From: Actinernus sp. WN-2022
Taxonomy: Eukaryota > Cnidaria > Anthozoa > Actiniaria > Actinernidae
Reading direction: 5' to 3'
Length of the DNA: 64,000 nucleotides
Assembly (NCBI GenBank): GCA_030867875.1
Contig: JAOWCC010001594.1
Span: forward strand, 1 to 64,000
Shown: positions 45,710 through 61,330 of the stretch, piece after piece
Layout: each line of letters starts with the position of its first letter
Numbering within the stretch: the first letter of the stretch is position 1
Translations under genes and position numbers: made by a program
Notes under the pieces: generated by a model
Database searches by the model: none
What the model was told of the DNA's origin: nothing
The model's input: the letters and a program-made list of their open reading frames with translations, nothing else

Positions 45710-45812
45710 ATCTACAACAACGCCTTTCCCTTGGGGATCGCAAGCTCAATTTATTCGTTAATGAAGTATCATATCAACACGTGACTGTTTCCTGCAAAAG
45801 GCCTATTAAACA

Positions 45813-46072
45813 GGCCACTTTGGAAACGAGTAGCGGATTGGGGCGAGTGGTCTCGCAAAGGCATTTGGGATCGTTACAGGGAACATGCATCGTGCCAACC
45901 TCGTTCCCAGTGTCTTCTCGGTCAGATCCCAGATGGCCGCCATCTTGGATCTGTCCGAGATGATACCATGTTTGTTTAGATTCTGCACGATGTGCGTGTA
46001 TCCATGTCACGATCCCACGCGCCATTGCGAGACCACCCTTGCCCAAATCCTCTACTCGTTTCCAAAGTGGCC
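45813..46072. mobile_element. TIR element, 260 bp
   Basis: Inverted ends GGCCACTTTGGAAACGAGTA, with similarity continuing for about 70 bp (GGTCTCGCAA, GGGATCGT). The centre holds CCAACCTCGTTCCCAG and a short palindrome CAGATGGCCGCCATCTTG. Short ORFs on both strands are by-products. Confidence 0.75.
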
Positions 46073-46183
46073 AATTTTAGTTTTCCATGTCCATGTTGCT
46101 GAAATTCGCTGTAACTTGGCACAGGCAGAAGAAGTCGATTTTTATTAAAGATTTACGTTAAATATTATACAGCTCCCAAGCTT

Positions 46184-46419
46184 AGCAGCAGGGGTGCTGA
46201 GCAGAATTCTTGGGTGTCGAATTGTTGTATCCAACGATTTCATTTAGACAAGACACAACGATAATCAACATGTGACCCAACAAAAACAACATGTGACACA
46301 AGAAAACCCACATGTGACACAACGAAATCCAACATGTCAACATTCAGACATCATAAGTACTGCCCATCCCCCTGCTGCTATTGCTATTACATTCGTTGTC
46401 CACATTATCGTATTTCGAT
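46184..46419 (+). repeat. Left terminal inverted repeat of the compact element
   Basis: Pairs with 47835-48069. Contains spaced CAACATGTGAC motifs at about 46267, 46288, 46309 and a partial one at 46331, period 21-24 bp, as expected for recombinase or factor binding sites. Confidence 0.95.
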
Positions 46420-46442
46420 GCCCTATTAGAGAAGGGTTGTTA

Positions 46443-46453
46443 TGTAGTATATC
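46443..46453 (+). promoter_or_regulatory. Shared upstream motif, ORF 1 copy
   Basis: TGTAGTATATC, 16 nt before the ATG at 46459. Same layout as 46621 and 47057. Confidence 0.5.
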
Positions 46454-46458
46454 CACCC

Positions 46459-46596
46459 ATGATACTAACGTATATTCTTTACTTAACGATATTAACGTAT
46501 GTTGCTACTTTAGTATGTATTAATACCACACAGATGAGTCAAGCGCAGGAGTCGAACGGATTGATTGAAGAACCTCAACGTAGACGCCACAACTAA
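46459..46596 (+). CDS. Putative 45-aa single-pass membrane peptide
   Basis: ATG-initiated ORF 40 bp inside the left TIR. Residues 1-22 (M-I-L-T-Y-I-L-Y-L-T-I-L-T-Y-V-A-T-L-V-C-I-N) form one hydrophobic helix; the rest is hydrophilic and ends P-Q-R-R-R-H-N. No homologue recognised. Support: it fills the space between the TIR and the next gene, it stops 41 bp before the next ATG, and it carries the same upstream motif as the other two genes (TGTAGTATATC, 16 nt before the ATG). Its size alone would be unconvincing. Confidence 0.45.
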   Translation: MILTYILYLTILTYVATLVCINTTQMSQAQESNGLIEEPQRRRHN

Positions 46597-46620
46597 GATA
46601 CCAATTAGACACATAACATA

Positions 46621-46632
46621 TATAGGCATATC
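46621..46632 (+). promoter_or_regulatory. Shared upstream motif, ORF 2 copy
   Basis: TATAGGCATATC, 17 nt before the ATG at 46638. Confidence 0.5.
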
Positions 46633-46637
46633 ACACG

Positions 46638-46964
46638 ATGGCTGAGATAATAACTTGCGATTGGCTGATGCGGGGTAAGGACACGAAATGTGTAAGGAAG
46701 TGTTCTAAGATATCAGAGTATTGTGCTCAACATAACTTCCAGATACAAAGAGGGAGCGCCATATTCGTTCCATGTTCGAAGTGCGGTCGTGGTTGCCGTA
46801 CTAGTTACGGACTTTGTACGAAGTGTGGTGCGCCACAGCGCCGTATCATTCGTGAGAAGAAATACCTCGAGACGATACTCCGCAATAAGGATCGCTTTTC
46901 AAATGTGTTGGCGGAATTGAAGGACCATAAGGTGGAATTGAAGGATCACAGGATTCCTAGATGA
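46638..46964 (+). CDS. 108-aa cysteine-rich double zinc-site protein
   Basis: Intronless ORF. N-terminal zinc-site pattern: C7, W9, G13-K14, C18, C22, Y28-C29, H32. Second, ribbon-like site: C46-x2-C49 and C60-x2-C63-G, with an extra C53. The C-terminal 40 residues are charged and helical (K-K-Y-L-E-T-I-L-R-N-K-D, then two similar E-L-K-D-H repeats). The C..GK..C..C..YC..H module recurs in small proteins of large DNA viruses and phages (from memory), but I cannot name a family. Likely nucleic-acid or protein binding; a role beside the TFIIB-like factor is inference. Confidence 0.8.
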   Translation: MAEIITCDWLMRGKDTKCVRKCSKISEYCAQHNFQIQRGSAIFVPCSKCGRGCRTSYGLCTKCGAPQRRIIREKKYLETILRNKDRFSNVLAELKDHKVELKDHRIPR

Positions 46965-46981
46965 TTAGACCTCGCGATATG

Positions 46982-47038
46982 AAAAAAAAAGAAGAAAGAT
47001 AAACCATCGTCATGTCTCTCTTCCTTCTTTTTTTTATT
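46982..47038 (+). terminator. Poly-A/poly-T hairpin between genes 2 and 3
   Basis: AAAAAAAAGAAGAAAGA pairs with TCTTCCTTCTTTTTTTT (16 of 17) around a loop of about 20 nt. It lies 18 bp after the stop of the 108-aa ORF. Several giant viruses use hairpins at transcript ends (established for mimiviruses); that role here is inference. Confidence 0.5.
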
Positions 47039-47056
47039 TTAAACAATAGATAGACC

Positions 47057-47067
47057 TATAGTATACG
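47057..47067 (+). promoter_or_regulatory. Shared upstream motif, ORF 3 copy
   Basis: TATAGTATACG, 19 nt before the ATG at 47076. Confidence 0.5.
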
Positions 47068-47075
47068 CCACTAGT

Positions 47076-47828
47076 ATGGACAACCTACTTGTCTTGCTTG
47101 GTATTAATCCTCCTATTCCACGACCACATATCAATCCCACTGAAACGTGCTCAGAATGTCTATGTCCAATGAAGGTGGTAGGAACCGAATTCATATGTTT
47201 CACCTGTGGCCTTATTTCTGAGGCTGAATTTAGTGAAGAAACGATTGAAGTTGCTACTCGGTTGCGTATAGTAGGTCCAGATAGCTTTCAACATCAACGC
47301 GATCTCGATCGTACCAGACCAACAGATAATCAAGAATTTCAACGACGCACAGCTATGAGAGAACTACAGGCATACAACGAGGCTTATAAACAAAATCACG
47401 ACCTCTCGTTTCCTACAAATGTATTAGTAATCGTAGCCGACGCATTCATTCAATCAAAGAAAGTTTATGTTAAGCGTAGTAATGCTAAGAGAACTGTTTT
47501 AGCTGCTCTACTTTACCAGGCATGTATACAATGTGGGTTTGTTCGCTCTAAAAATGAGGTTGCTAATTTCATGCAACTTGACAACCATCGCATCTATCGT
47601 GGCAACACTTTCATACGCTCGCTACATGCCGACAACAAAATCGATATTGACTTAAATGTCGATCGCATAGCTCCTAATATAGCAACGACCTTTGCAAAGC
47701 TTGACCTACATGAAGCACATCTACAACGAATAGTATACGAGGTCGTTAACATAGCAATCGAAGACCATATAGGTCTAAACTCCCGACTCCACGCCAAAGT
47801 TGTTGGAGCTGTATGTCAGCCTCTCTAA
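47076..47828 (+). CDS. TFIIB-like transcription factor (zinc ribbon plus cyclin fold)
   Basis: 250-aa intronless ORF ending 6 bp before the right TIR. Residues 25-46 form a zinc ribbon: C25-x2-C28-x12-C41-x2-C44-G, followed by L-I-S-E. Residues about 95-235 are helical and cyclin-like; the stretch N-A-K-R-T-V-L-A-A-L-L-Y-Q-A-C then G-F-V-R-S-K-N-E-V-A-N-F matches the pattern of a TFIIB core repeat (A-A..LY.AC..G..R...E.A). TFIIB recruits RNA polymerase II; TFIIB-like and VLTF3-like zinc-ribbon factors are encoded by many nucleocytoplasmic large DNA viruses (family knowledge). Only one clear cyclin repeat is obvious, so it is shorter than host TFIIB (about 315 aa). The lack of introns and tight packing against the TIR argue for a viral or mobile origin. 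Confidence 0.75.
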   Translation: MDNLLVLLGINPPIPRPHINPTETCSECLCPMKVVGTEFICFTCGLISEAEFSEETIEVATRLRIVGPDSFQHQRDLDRTRPTDNQEFQRRTAMRELQAYNEAYKQNHDLSFPTNVLVIVADAFIQSKKVYVKRSNAKRTVLAALLYQACIQCGFVRSKNEVANFMQLDNHRIYRGNTFIRSLHADNKIDIDLNVDRIAPNIATTFAKLDLHEAHLQRIVYEVVNIAIEDHIGLNSRLHAKVVGAVCQPL

Positions 47829-47834
47829 ATTGGA

Positions 47835-48069
47835 ATCGAAATACGATAATGTGGACAACGAATGTAATAGCAATAGCAGCAGGGGGATGGGCAGTACTTA
47901 TGATGTCTGAATGTTGACATTGTGATTTCGTTGTGTCACATGTGGGTTTTCTTGTGTCACATGTTGTTTTTGTTGGGTCACATGTTGATTATCGTTGTGT
48001 CTTGTCTAAATGAAATCGTTAGATACAACAATTCGACACCCAAGAATTCTGCTCAGCACCCCTGCTGCT
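47835..48069 (-). repeat. Right terminal inverted repeat of the compact element
   Basis: Inverted copy of 46184-46419 with three or four differences (for example C/T in TAT[C/T]AACGAT, and a 1-bp indel near 47920). Confidence 0.95.
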
Positions 48070-48109
48070 AGCTTGGACTACCTGTGGTTAAATGGGCATA
48101 TAATAAATA

Positions 48110-48600
48110 ATAATAACAATGTTTATACAGGGGGCTCGCATCACCAAGGTGTTTTTCAGTGAGGCCCTGTTAAAATTATAATAATAAATTAAAATACAAT
48201 GGGGAGTTCAAATATGAAAGTTAAAAATGCTATTATACAAATTAAATAAATAAAATCTAATTAAAAATATGTGTCTTGATATGCTGTTTAAAAACAGCCA
48301 AGGATTCGGATTCCTTTATTGACTTATCTAAATTGTTCCAGTCATAAAAACCTTGGTAAAAAAGCCGTTGTTTTCCATAATTACGTTTTACTAAAGGGAG
48401 GCGATAATCTCCCTTTCTTCTCGTATTGTAGTTGTGAATATCACTATTTCTTAAAATATTAAAATTGTAATTTATAAGTCCGTGGATATACTTAAATATA
48501 AGTATAAGTCTATGTACAAGGCGCCGCTGGGATAAAGTGGGCCAACCAAGTCTATTGAGAGCATCAGTGGCTGAGGCATGCCTATTGCAGGATATTGCAG
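48110..48600 (-). pseudogene. CR1-like LINE 3' end, 5'-truncated (LINE D)
   Basis: Minus-strand frame ending at 48257 encodes the RT C-terminus: S-A-T-D-A-L-N-R-L-G-W-P-T-L-S-Q-R-R, Y-N-T-R-R-K-G-D-Y-R-L-P, F-Y-Q-G-F-Y-D-W-N-N-L. A short 3' UTR follows to about 48110. Homology stops at about 48590 where a TATTGCAGGATA(C) unit repeats. The frame is intact, so a recent truncated insertion. Confidence 0.85.
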
Positions 48601-48637
48601 GATACAATGCATATTGCAGGATACAATCACGTAGTTG

Positions 48638-55642: not shown

Positions 55643-57267
55643 GTAAGCATACCATGATAATTAACGACAAACCAACAGTAAACACATTGAGCACATACAG
55701 GGCGTTCTAACTTGATTCACATATCGATCGTTTATATACGTTCTCTTTTTAACTCGTGGTGCGTGCATGCGTAAGACCGAGTTATTTGTATTGGTGGATT
55801 TCAGACTGATGTCTGTTAGCAGCGGGTAATGAACTTTAGGGCACACCACGATTCCCATAGTTAAACTAGGACACTTACAAAGTACAAAACTGTCCATTAT
55901 AGTACAGGTATATTCAGGGTCGTTATATAATGATTGGGGTCGAAAATGGTTAGGTTTTTTTTATTTGAGGGTTACTAGGTTTGAAGTGATTCGTGGCAGG
56001 TGGCTCAAATTTTGACAGACGTGGTATTGGGTCCCCATCAATCATTTAGTGGTGATGTCGTAACGATGACGTCATCGGTCACGTGATTTTTAGTACATGC
56101 CCGTATCTCTCATTTCTAATGCCAGGCGGCTAGTCAAACTTTGACAACGTCATCGATCACGTGATTTTAAGTAAACTTCCGTATCTCCATTCCTAACCCA
56201 GTAATAGGACATATAGGTACTTCATGTAGGAAACACATAAATGTCACCAGGTCATACCAACATCGTGGAGAACCTCAACTCGGACTGAGACTCCGCGCGG
56301 GCTGAGCGACTCGGGCTCAGACCGGCCGCACGGGCTGGTGGACCTCCACTGTTTAAACCATCTGGCCCGTGCGTCTTCTCTCGAAAAAAATAACAATAGA
56401 AGTTAGAACTCCCTGTGCATTGAGTATATTTTTGGTGCCACGTTTGTCAGTATATAGCCGTTCGGAACACAAGACAACAATACCAGCATGCAGTATTTTT
56501 TTCATATCGGTATCACATCAGTGTTGTTTGTCATAGTAGTATAGGAAATCATATGGTTTCGAGTGCAATTCAGGGATAAATTTGAACGAGTGAGTTTTCA
56601 AAGAGTATCAAAATTGCACATTGCACGACAAAACCGTATGATTCATTGGTAAACATACTGACTCAAAAAAAATACTTGAATCTTCGGACAATCTTCGGAA
56701 ATATATCGGAAAATTTGAATCACCGTTTACATAGGTAATGCTACAACATCTGAAATGTTCGTGATTAGTACTGTCAAATGAATTTACAGAGTTAGACGTG
56801 TTTTTTGCCGTAACCACAGCGAAGTAGTCGGGTTCAACCATTCGGAAATTTTCGGAAACAGTTCGGAATTTGTCGGAATATTATTGGAAAAACATGCTTG
56901 ACCATGCTTTCATTTCATTCTGGAGCTTTTGTTTTCGATTTATAGATGGTCAACTTCCTGATTTGGAGTGCAATTACAACCAAACTGCAATTTGTGAGAA
57001 ATTGTCCTCCAGTCTCGACCAATCAGAATCGAGAAATGTTGTTGAGTATATGATTATGACTGAAAACGACATCAATATTTTAACTTGTACTAATAATCTA
57101 CTTTACATGTCAATAAATAAGGGCAGTCTCATTTAAGTTGTACTAAGCAATATGTATTTTGCTGAAATTAATGCCATACATAATGCCCGTGTACAGGCTG
57201 TGTACAGCCTCTTGTTTCCATTTAAAAATTCAATCTGTTTGCTGATGAACCATATATTTTATAACAG
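55643..57267. other. Pentraxin intron 2, no gene recognised
   Basis: A CACGTGATTTT[T/A]AGTA repeat occurs at 56079 and 56157, and TTCGGAAA motifs at 56690-56880. No supported ORF. Confidence 0.5.
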
Positions 57268-57649
57268 AACAAAGGTAGCCGCTAACGACGGTAAATGGCA
57301 CCACATCTGTTTAACATGGGAGAGCTCCGGTGGGGCGTGGGTGCTGTACAAGGACGGACACGCTGCAGCAAGCGGCCGAGGACTTGCAACAGGTCACGTG
57401 ATCACGGGTAACGGTATCTTGATTTTAGGACAAGAACAAGACTCTTTAGGTGGAGGTTTTGATGCGTCCCAGTCCTTCATCGGTGACATGAGCGGCATGA
57501 ACCTCTGGCGCAGAGCACTGGGCCCGAGGGAGATTTCAAGGATGTCAGCGGCATGCACTGCGGTCGATGGTGACGTGTTCAAGTGGCGCGACGCCAAAGC
57601 GGGTATTCGTGGAGGCGTACAGCTCGTGAAACCATCTCGTTGCAAGTGA
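57268..57649 (+). CDS. Secreted pentraxin, terminal exon
   Basis: Acceptor TTTATAACAG. Contains the pentraxin signature H-H-I-C-L-T-W-E-S (HxCxxWxS, second disulfide cysteine) and the calcium-site loop L-G-Q-E-Q-D-S-L-G-G-G-F-D-A-S-Q-S-F-I-G-D-M. Acidic or amide residues stand at the usual ligand positions; D replaces the common E before A-S-Q. N-L-W-R-R-A-L follows and the tail ends S-R-C-K with TGA at 57647-57649. Length and motif order fit a complete domain of about 200 residues. Confidence 0.95.
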
Positions 57650-57863: not shown

Positions 57864-60800
57864 TGACTACTCATAACAATAACTACATGACTACTCAGAC
57901 AATAACTACAATCACTAACTAAATGACTACTCATGACAATAACTACATGACTACTCATGACAATAACTACAATAACTACATGACTACTCATGACAATAAC
58001 TACATGACTACTCATAACAATAACTACATGACTACTCCTGACAATAACTACATGACTACTCATGACAATAACTACATGACTACTCAGACCATAACTACAA
58101 TCACTAACTACATTACTACTCCTGACAATAACTACATGACTACTCATGACAATAACTACATGACTACTCAGACAATAACTACAATCACTAACTACATTAC
58201 TACTCGTGACAATAACTACATGACTATACTCAGACAATAACTACAATCACTATCTGCATGACTACTCATGACAATAACTACATGACTACTCATAACAATA
58301 ACTACAATGACTACTCGTGACAATAACTACATGACTACTCATAACAATAACTACATGGCTACTCATGACAATAACTACATGACTACTCATAACAATAACT
58401 ACAATAACTAATTACATGACTACTCATGACAATAACTACTCATAACAATAACTACAATAACTACATGACTAATGACAATAACTAACATGACTACTCATAA
58501 CAATAACTACAATAACTACATGACTACTCGTGACAATAACTACATGACTACTCAGACAATAACTACAATCACTAACTACATGACTACTCATGACAATAAC
58601 TACATGACTACTCAGACAATAACTACAATCACTAACTACATGACTACTCATGACAATAACTACATGACTACTCATAACAATAACTACAATAACTATACAT
58701 GACTACTCATGACAATAACTTATACATGACTACTCATAACAATAACTACAATAACTACATGACTACTCATGACAATAACTACAATAACTACGTGACTACT
58801 CATGACAATAACTACAATATCTACTCATGACAATAACTACATGACTACTCATAACTACAATAACTACATGACTACTCATGACAATAACTACATGACTACT
58901 CAACAATAACTACAGGGCTACTCATGACAACTACAATCAATAACTACATGACTACTCATGACAATAACTACATGACTACTCATGACAATAACTACATGAC
59001 TACTCCTAACAATAACTACAATAACTACATGACTACTCGTGACAACTACATGACTACTCGACAATAACTACAATCACTAACTACATGACTACTCATGACA
59101 ATAACTGCATGACTACTCAGACAATAACTACAATCACTAACTACATGACTACTCATGACAATAACTACATGACTACTCAGACAATAACTACAATCACTAA
59201 CTACATGACTACTCATGACAATAACTACATGACTACTCCTAACAATAACTACAATAACTACATGACAACTACATGACTACTCAGACAATAACTACAATCA
59301 CTAACTACATGACTACTCATGACAATAACTACATGACTACTCAGACAATAACTACAATCACTAACTACATGACTACTCATGACAATAACTACATGACTAC
59401 TCATAACAATAACTACAATAACTATACATGACTACTCATGACAATAACTTATACATGACTACTCATAACAATAACTACAATCACTAACTACATGACTACT
59501 CATGACAATAACTACATGACTACTCAGACAATAACTACAATCACTAACTACTCATGACAATAACTACATGACTACTCATAACAATAACTACAATAACTAT
59601 ACATGACTACTCATGACAATAACTTATACATGACTACTCATAACAATAACTACAATAACTACATGACTACTCATGACAATAACTACAATAACTACGTGAC
59701 TACTCATGACAATAACTACAATATCTACTCATGACAATAACTACATGACTACTCATAACTACAATAACTACATGACTACTCATGACAATAACTACATGAC
59801 TACTCAACAATAACTACAGGGCTACTCATGACAACTACAATCAATAACTATATGACTACTCATGACAATAACTGCATGACTACTCAGACAATAACTAACA
59901 TGACTACTCATAACAATAACTACAATAACTACATGACTACTCGTGACAATAACTACATGACTACTCAGACAATAACTACAATCACTAACTACATGACTAC
60001 TCATGACAATAACTACATGACTACTCATGACAATAACTACATGACTACTCCTAACAATAACTACAATAACTACATGACTACTCGTGACAACTACATGACT
60101 ACTCGACAATAACTACAATCACTAACTACATGACTACTCATGACAATAACTGCATGACTACTCAGACAATAACTACAATCACTAACTACATGACTACTCA
60201 TGACAATAACTACATGACTACTCAGACAATAACTACAATCACTAACTACATGACTACTCATGACAATAACTACATGACTACTCATGACAATAACTACATG
60301 ACTACTCCTAACAATAACTACAATAACTACATGACTACTCATGACAACTACATGACTACTCAGACAATAACTACAATCACTAATTACATGACTACTCGTG
60401 ACAATAACTACTCATAATAATAACTACAATAACTACATGACTACTCATAACAAAAATACATGACTACTCATAACAATAACTACATGACTATACTCATGAC
60501 AATAACTACATGACTACTCAGACAATAACTACAATCACTAACTACATGACTACTCATGACAATAACTACAATTACTAACTACATGACTACTCATGACAAT
60601 AACTACATGACTACTCATAACTATAACTACAATAACTATACATGACTACTCATGACAATAACTACATGACTACTAATAACAATAACTACAGGGCTACTCA
60701 TGACAATACAGACAATAACTACATGACTTCTCAGACAATAACTACAATCAATAACTACATGACTACTCATGACAATAACTGAATGACTACTCAGACAATA

Positions 60801-61330
60801 ACTACAATCACTAACTACATGACTACTCATGACAATAACTACATGACTACTCATGACAATAACTACATGACTACTCATGAGAATAACTACATGACTACTC
60901 AGACAATAACTACAATCACTAACTACATGACTACTCATGACAATAACTACATGACTACTCATAACAATAACTACAGGGCTACTCATGACAATACAGACAA
61001 TAACTACATGACTACTCAGACAACTACAATCAATAACTACATGACTACTCATGACAATAACTGCATGACTACTCAGACAATAACTACAATCACTAACTAC
61101 ATGACTACTCATGACAATAACTACATGACTACTCAGACAATAACTACAATCACTAACTACATGACTACTCATGACAATAACTACATGACTACTCATGACA
61201 ATAACTACATGACTACTCAGACAATAACTACAATCACTAACTACATGACTAATGACAATAACTACATGACTACTCAGACAATAACTACAATCACTAACTA
61301 CATGACTACTCATGACAATAACTACTCAGA
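57864..61330. repeat. 24-bp minisatellite, 3.5 kb
   Basis: The basic unit is ATGACTACTCATGACAATAACTAC. A variant CAGACAATAACTACAATCACTAACTAC is interspersed. Because 24 is a multiple of three and neither strand of the unit has a stop in one frame, long ORFs arise on both strands (M-T-T-H-D-N-N-Y and S-S-H-V-V-I-V-M). A block starting AACTATACATGACTACTC at 58691 recurs at 59595, so a higher-order period of 904 bp is present. The array begins about 150 bp after the pentraxin poly(A) signal. Confidence 0.97.

Follow-up and report, generated by a model that had tools for sequence, protein, structure and literature searches.

How does a mobile element of less than two kilobases come to carry a gene for a TFIIB-like transcription factor? 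The question is raised by a locus of the sea anemone Actinernus sp. WN-2022, lying in a stretch of 64,000 nucleotides (positions 1 to 64,000 of contig JAOWCC010001594.1, assembly GCA_030867875.1) which we call the window. An earlier note on this stretch had described a compact element with three intact open reading frames (ORFs), built around a cargo of transcription factors, and had taken it for a non-autonomous satellite of a Polinton-like or similar element, possibly one that controls the transcription of its helper. Our analysis points to another origin. With a probability of roughly 0.87, the element is an internal-deletion derivative of a 14-19 kb integrated virus, likely a Tlr1-like polinton-like virus, and the 3' end of its TFIIB-like gene is cut at the deletion joint.

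The element occupies positions 46184-48069 (1886 bp) and is flanked on each side by AGCTT, an exact duplication which had been read correctly before. The near-identical terminal inverted repeats (TIRs) are likewise real: the alignment of their 249 and 248 bases contains 242 identities among 247 aligned bases, 5 mismatches and 3 gap positions, and over their outer 235 bp the two repeats differ by a single substitution and at a single small indel site. The main parts of the element are the following.

46179-46183, no strand: left 5-bp target-site duplication AGCTT (direct reading)
46184-46432, plus strand: left TIR, beginning AGCAGCAGGGG, with an (AGC)2 end (self-alignment and genomic matches)
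46459-46596, plus strand: membrane-type peptide frame, 45 amino acids (aa), the same frame being open in homologous copies
46638-46964, plus strand: zinc protein of 108 aa with two Cys-rich modules (ORF list, alignment with long-element copies)
47076-47828, plus strand: 3'-truncated TFIIB-like gene, 250 aa (ORF list, profiles, alignment to relatives)
47809-47812, no strand: deletion joint, with TFIIB-gene sequence to the left and long-element right-end sequence to the right (alignment)
47822-48069, minus strand: right TIR (self-alignment)
48070-48074, no strand: right AGCTT copy (direct reading)

At the joint, TFIIB homology stops at 47809 in all four aligned copies, the right-end sequence resumes at most three bases later, and almost no bases are common to both partners. 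To the left of this point, window positions 46421-47809 form a contiguous match to one genomic copy (L040) at 96.6% identity. When a 211-base junction query was compared with the 1.39-Gb genome (40 of 334 candidates scored), the window was the sole full-length match. The remaining TFIIB hits stopped at query base 119 (47808) or 120 (47809). One locus on contig C888 gave all four right-end hits, which started at base 120. Because a second copy would be expected among the best-scoring candidates, we take the joint as single-copy. As far as candidates were scored, the element is a single-copy internal-deletion derivative rather than a satellite family. Of the earlier proposal, the non-autonomous relationship to a Polinton-like element is retained and the satellite family is not, and what had looked like a design around transcription-factor cargo turns out to be a long element reduced to its left 1.63 kb and its right end.

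Long elements with the same TIR, which the earlier note had envisaged, were indeed found in the same genome, with an integrase, a packaging ATPase and a polymerase-motif protein. The TIR query gave at least 40 matches (40 of 242 candidates scored), including eight inverted pairs spaced by 13.9-19 kb, with one further pair at 34 kb and another at 74 kb. Eight long elements were spanned by reading each in halves. All eight encode an rve integrase, a protein combining polymerase motifs with superfamily 1 (SF1) helicase and HNH domains, a packaging ATPase and a capsid candidate; a penton candidate is present in seven and the TFIIB-like gene in six, four of which hold it as a single open frame of 311-319 aa. 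The long elements have the same TIR ends and the same left-end gene order as the window element, and both the zinc-protein ORF and the small membrane-peptide ORF recur in them. Their ends gave end-to-end inverted alignments of 273-443 bp in every case, and five of the eight are bounded by clean duplications: a script found CCGCTA, AAACG and GATCT, and inspection by eye added GTCGGA and TTGGT, the latter with one AGC slipped. The flanks of the L013/L014 pair are inverted copies of one another, resembling a large palindrome or an assembly inversion. Six further loci were taken around single TIRs; TFIIB is present in three of them, and one (L027/L028) holds only a TIR and a zinc-protein fragment. 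At L019/L020, L029/L030 and L031/L032 no TFIIB match was obtained and the zinc gene lies in the opposite orientation, so that these may possibly form a second subtype of long element. A census with the TFIIB protein found it at no fewer than 150 places (the best 150 of 2759 candidates, the window and some near-identical duplicates included), 33 of which, by hand count, have a stop in the matched stretch, the other 117 having none.

The genes of the long elements were assigned from profile matches, motifs and position. The packaging ATPase matches Pox_A32 above the cut-off (E 2e-11). The integrase matches PF00665 rve (E 1.8e-6) and an IS481-type transposase (E 9.7e-13), both below the cut-off, and has the residues D73-D138-E173. 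A fusion protein of 1316 aa matches AAA_30 (E 1.1e-8), a Dda-like helicase (7.4e-12) and endonuclease VII (6.1e-12), and ahead of the SF1-helicase and endonuclease VII/HNH domains lie a motif A, SIDMKSCYP, and a motif C, ATDS. The polymerase part of this protein is proposed from these motifs, spotted by eye, because no polymerase profile matched; a PDB search with the fusion protein gave no useful match. The capsid candidate (439 aa) adjoins the ATPase gene and has relatives in all eight spanned elements. No Pfam match to a stand-alone pPolB was obtained in the 20 ORFs scanned, a subset of the total, or in the scans of the fusion protein, and no RNA polymerase gene was present among the long-element ORFs scanned. 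The packaging ATPase, the rve-type integrase, the TIRs and the 5-6 bp duplications are features that the long elements share with Tlr1-like polinton-like viruses, and the parent is likely such a virus.

What is the protein whose gene was cut? Residues 1-245 of the 250-aa ORF belong to a viral TFIIB family, and the final five residues are encoded on the far side of the joint. Among 1000 first-order Markov shuffles none had an ORF as long as the longest one of the inner sequence (244 aa, against a maximum of 166). Two segments of the 250-aa protein can be placed on the sequence.

47148-47207, plus strand: zinc ribbon CxxC-x12-CxxC, residues 25-44 (reading and alignment)
47364-47624, plus strand: first cyclin-like TFIIB repeat, about residues 97-183 (profile matches)

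The zinc ribbon had already been noticed, and its cysteines (25, 28, 41 and 44) are all invariant in the 12 aligned sequences. The 250-aa protein matches the Pfam TFIIB repeat at E 0.0065 and the NCBIfam TFIIB family at E 7.5e-5. A profile of 12 relatives reached the TFIIB structures 1ais and 1d3u, which we take to be archaeal TFIIB, at E 1.2e-5, and further TFIIB structures at about 0.008. The second cyclin-like repeat is not recognised at the sequence level and is partly lost in the window copy. The protein is thus TFIIB-like, by a similarity that is real but weak. Of the designation as a TFIIB/VLTF3-type factor in the earlier note, the TFIIB half stands; a VLTF3 profile was absent among the Pfam families matched by the window proteins at E up to 10. 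Seven database relatives (P0001-P0007; 314-430 aa, 27-47% identity) come from contigs of 2-194 kb. No relative was found in IMG/VR, which was scanned with the TIR and with four proteins (TFIIB, zinc, ATPase and capsid candidate), and a tblastn search against phages gave no useful match. Within the genome, the three closest copies are 93-96% identical over TFIIB residues 1-247 and have frames of 314-317 aa, one of them with a stop. Compared with the four intact long-element copies, the window protein lacks 56 C-terminal residues, a little under a fifth of the full length, and compared with the closest copy (L038), 61. The three intact ORFs described earlier are therefore there in part: the 108-aa and 250-aa frames exist and the 45-aa frame is plausible, but the 250-aa ORF is 3'-truncated in comparison to its full-length relatives.

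Several results weigh against our interpretation. The TFIIB similarity lies under the curated Pfam and NCBIfam cut-offs. The gene is missing from two of the eight spanned elements, has a disrupted frame in two of the other six, and is missing from three of the six further loci. Three of the eight pairs are without a clean duplication (L013/14; L015/16, with one base different; L021/22, with the left tip lost). In the fusion protein, the first 740 aa matched no polymerase family, and the capsid and penton candidates matched neither a naming family, NCBIfam included, nor a PDB entry. Finally, the direct parent is not among the long elements spanned, and the genome copy counts are lower bounds.

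Three other explanations have to be considered. The compact element could be a true satellite that keeps the membrane peptide, the zinc protein and the TFIIB-like factor in order to exploit the long viruses or to interfere with them. Its ORFs are open and TATA-like sites stand before both main ones, and the TFIIB family is under purifying selection over long distances: the ratio of non-synonymous to synonymous change (dN/dS) is 0.20-0.23 between the window gene and four long-element genes, at a synonymous divergence (dS) of 1.03-1.06, and 0.31-0.48 among those four. Comparison of the window gene with the three closest copies yields 0.36-0.58, and one pair among the three gives 1.15. From the low dN/dS, the family has been kept by selection; for the remnant itself, however, the private changes (2 synonymous, 3 non-synonymous) are too few to show any. 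Moreover, the joint was seen once among the scored candidates and cuts the TFIIB gene, which makes a satellite quite improbable. For the same reasons the idea that the element controls the transcription of its helper finds no support.

About as doubtful is an assembly artefact, i.e., a long element collapsed or mis-joined on the 206-kb contig C640. The contig is short and multi-copy TIRs favour mis-joins, but mis-joins would be expected inside long shared repeats, whereas this joint falls within the TFIIB gene, where the partners share almost no bases; in addition, the two copies of the target duplication agree exactly and the left flank matched this locus only (40 of 793 candidates scored). 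Much the least credible is a new type of small transposon with transcription-factor cargo, unrelated to polintons. It is true that the 1.9-kb element has its own TIRs, duplication and ORFs, yet 14-19 kb elements with virus genes have the same ends and the same left-end gene order, and the deletion joint is present. We therefore prefer the internal-deletion derivative.

How such a derivative could arise may be outlined as follows. The long virus would integrate by means of its rve integrase, giving the 5-6 bp duplications, and would replicate by a protein-primed mechanism, as suggested by the slipped AGC ends and the polymerase motifs. Its TFIIB-like factor, together with host TBP, would bring host RNA polymerase II (Pol II) to TATA-like promoters near the start codons; judging from family membership and promoter layout, the start of viral transcription with host TBP and Pol II is the most likely function of this factor. 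In the window element, the left 1.63 kb (the TIR, the membrane-peptide frame, the zinc gene and TFIIB to residue 245) is joined directly to the right-end TIR at 47809, and the middle, with the integrase, the packaging ATPase, the polymerase/helicase and the candidate capsid genes, is gone. It was presumably lost through end-joining that needed next to no homology. A deletion in place after integration is slightly more likely than one before it. The small divergence between the two TIRs, and from the nearest relatives, is compatible with a fairly recent event, in agreement with the recent activity suggested earlier. Without the end of the second cyclin repeat, the truncated factor is predicted to be non-functional, and the remnant probably does nothing. 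The presumed end sites of the integrase are still present in it, and movement in trans is conceivable in principle, if at all only through proteins of the long elements; no sign of past movement was seen. It might also be imagined that a lineage of animal polinton-like viruses with its own TFIIB, but lacking an RNA polymerase, chooses promoters on host Pol II and that the truncated TFIIB of the remnant competes with the full-length factor and so brakes its relatives, but we regard this as a very long shot.

The promoter layout referred to above includes two sites in the window element.

46619-46624, plus strand: TATATA, 14-19 nt upstream of the zinc-protein start (putative promoter)
47057-47065, plus strand: TATAGTATA, upstream of the TFIIB-like start (putative promoter)

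Besides both main window ORFs, 10 of 13 distinct genes of three long elements have a TATA no more than 30 nt from the start, against a background of 16.7% for all positions and 20.5% for those ahead of any ATG. The P values are optimistic, because the motif was picked after viewing the upstream sequences.

The two smaller frames tell less. The zinc protein is 65-69% identical to five aligned long-element copies and 82% to a sixth (L032); a homologue search brought no useful match, and from its cysteine pattern it is likely a nucleic-acid-binding partner. The membrane peptide of the earlier note, which was given without coordinates, is most likely the frame at 46459-46596. Six of seven homologous copies retain its identical ATG and stop (L039 is frameshifted), and five of these six have an in-frame 12-base deletion. 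Pairwise dN/dS ranges from 0.22 to 1.84 over 21 pairs and settles nothing on coding, and no Pfam family matched; that the frame is coding is plausible. The idea that this peptide was the 21-bp repeat of the TIR read in frame was dropped; the 53-aa TIR frame differs from 46459-46596. This TIR frame has no stop inside the element, its outer 46 codons are open in 17 of 23 TIRs, and its first codon is ATG only in the left TIR of the window.

46260-46327, plus strand: 21-bp tandem subrepeats (around ACATGTGACxCAA) within the left TIR (sequence reading)

A subterminal unit of about 80 bp is present once at either end of the window element. Many copies of it stand beside one TIR elsewhere (L021:405-1537), and its copy number differs among elements. 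Just beyond the TFIIB gene of L040, at 444-1321, lies a tandem array of units of about 55 bp. Three loci (L041-L043, on C1496, C1192 and C1274) in which the TFIIB gene is internally deleted were considered as a second reduced form, but we do not regard them as mini-elements: all three are nearly the same segment (98.6-99.9% identity in the aligned parts), and the p206 gene follows TFIIB in its usual place in L041 and L042; L043 gave no p206 match.

As to the surroundings, a query made of the joined host flanks (again 40 of 793 candidates scored) found no uninterrupted paralogous empty site. On the right, a high-copy repeat (48095-48607) starts about 25-30 bases from the insertion and holds a minus-strand frame of 116 aa, without a Pfam match, which we take to resemble the end of a long interspersed nuclear element (LINE) ORF2. 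Just left of the element, at 45808-46077, nested inverted repeats of 40 bp (88% complementary) and 36 bp (83%) look like an older palindromic repeat. An exon-like frame with a Pentaxin domain (57152-57649, E 5.6e-29) points to an animal host, and at 60000-61325 there is a long degenerate tandem array of 24/60/84-bp units with long frames open on both strands.

Among known systems, miniature inverted-repeat transposable elements and deletion derivatives of DNA transposons are short, keep their TIRs, have lost their internal genes and are moved only in trans. The window element differs from these in that it retains coding remnants and was found in one copy. It is an ordinary deletion product; the unusual part is the parent family. 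Tlr1 of Tetrahymena and Tlr1-like viruses share with the long elements the rve integrase and the packaging ATPase, and have a counterpart to the large protein in which putative palm motifs, motif C with an altered first Asp, are combined with an SF1 helicase and an endonuclease (PMC11071308, PMC4642659, PMC3671162). In Tlr1-like helicases, as described, an SF1 helicase is fused to the palm of a protein-primed polymerase whose motif C has its first Asp altered, and some of these proteins hold GIY-YIG or HNH endonucleases (PMC11071308); this fusion is the nearest described architecture to that predicted for the 1316-aa protein. Unlike Tlr1, the long elements have a C-terminal domain of HNH/endonuclease VII type instead of GIY-YIG, carry TFIIB-like and zinc genes at the left end, and likely have an animal rather than a ciliate host. 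Vertebrate Maverick/Polinton elements share the TIRs, the short integration duplications and the rve integrase, and their terminal tandem repeats, (AG)3 or (AGT)2, have a counterpart in the (AGC)2-3 of the long elements (PMC8097293). The long elements differ from these in duplications of 5 or 6, not 6 bp, in the helicase fusion and in the TFIIB gene, and Pfam recognised no PolB in those of their ORFs that were scanned.

Polinton-like viruses of cryptophytes resemble the long elements in size (14-40 kb), in their high copy number, in TIRs several hundred bases long, in duplications of 5-6 bp and, in a subset, in SF1 helicase-endonuclease fusions; the word TFIIB is absent from the main text of that report (PMC12220804). 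Capsid genes have already pointed to a non-Maverick polinton-type lineage in animals, through a cnidarian cluster that falls outside the Maverick group (PMC10120064). In the literature searched, mostly outside subscription journals, we met with no account of this deletion form or of a polinton-like virus that carries TFIIB. TFIIB is a nucleocytoplasmic large DNA virus (NCLDV) marker of giant viruses, which have in common with the long elements a virus-encoded factor of TFIIB type (PMC12638062); here it is found in elements of 14-19 kb. A small virus that would depend on the polymerase of its host would thus possess a relative of a giant-virus marker, which raises the testable question of whether one factor can redirect Pol II to viral promoters and, further, whether transcription in giant viruses began from such a step.

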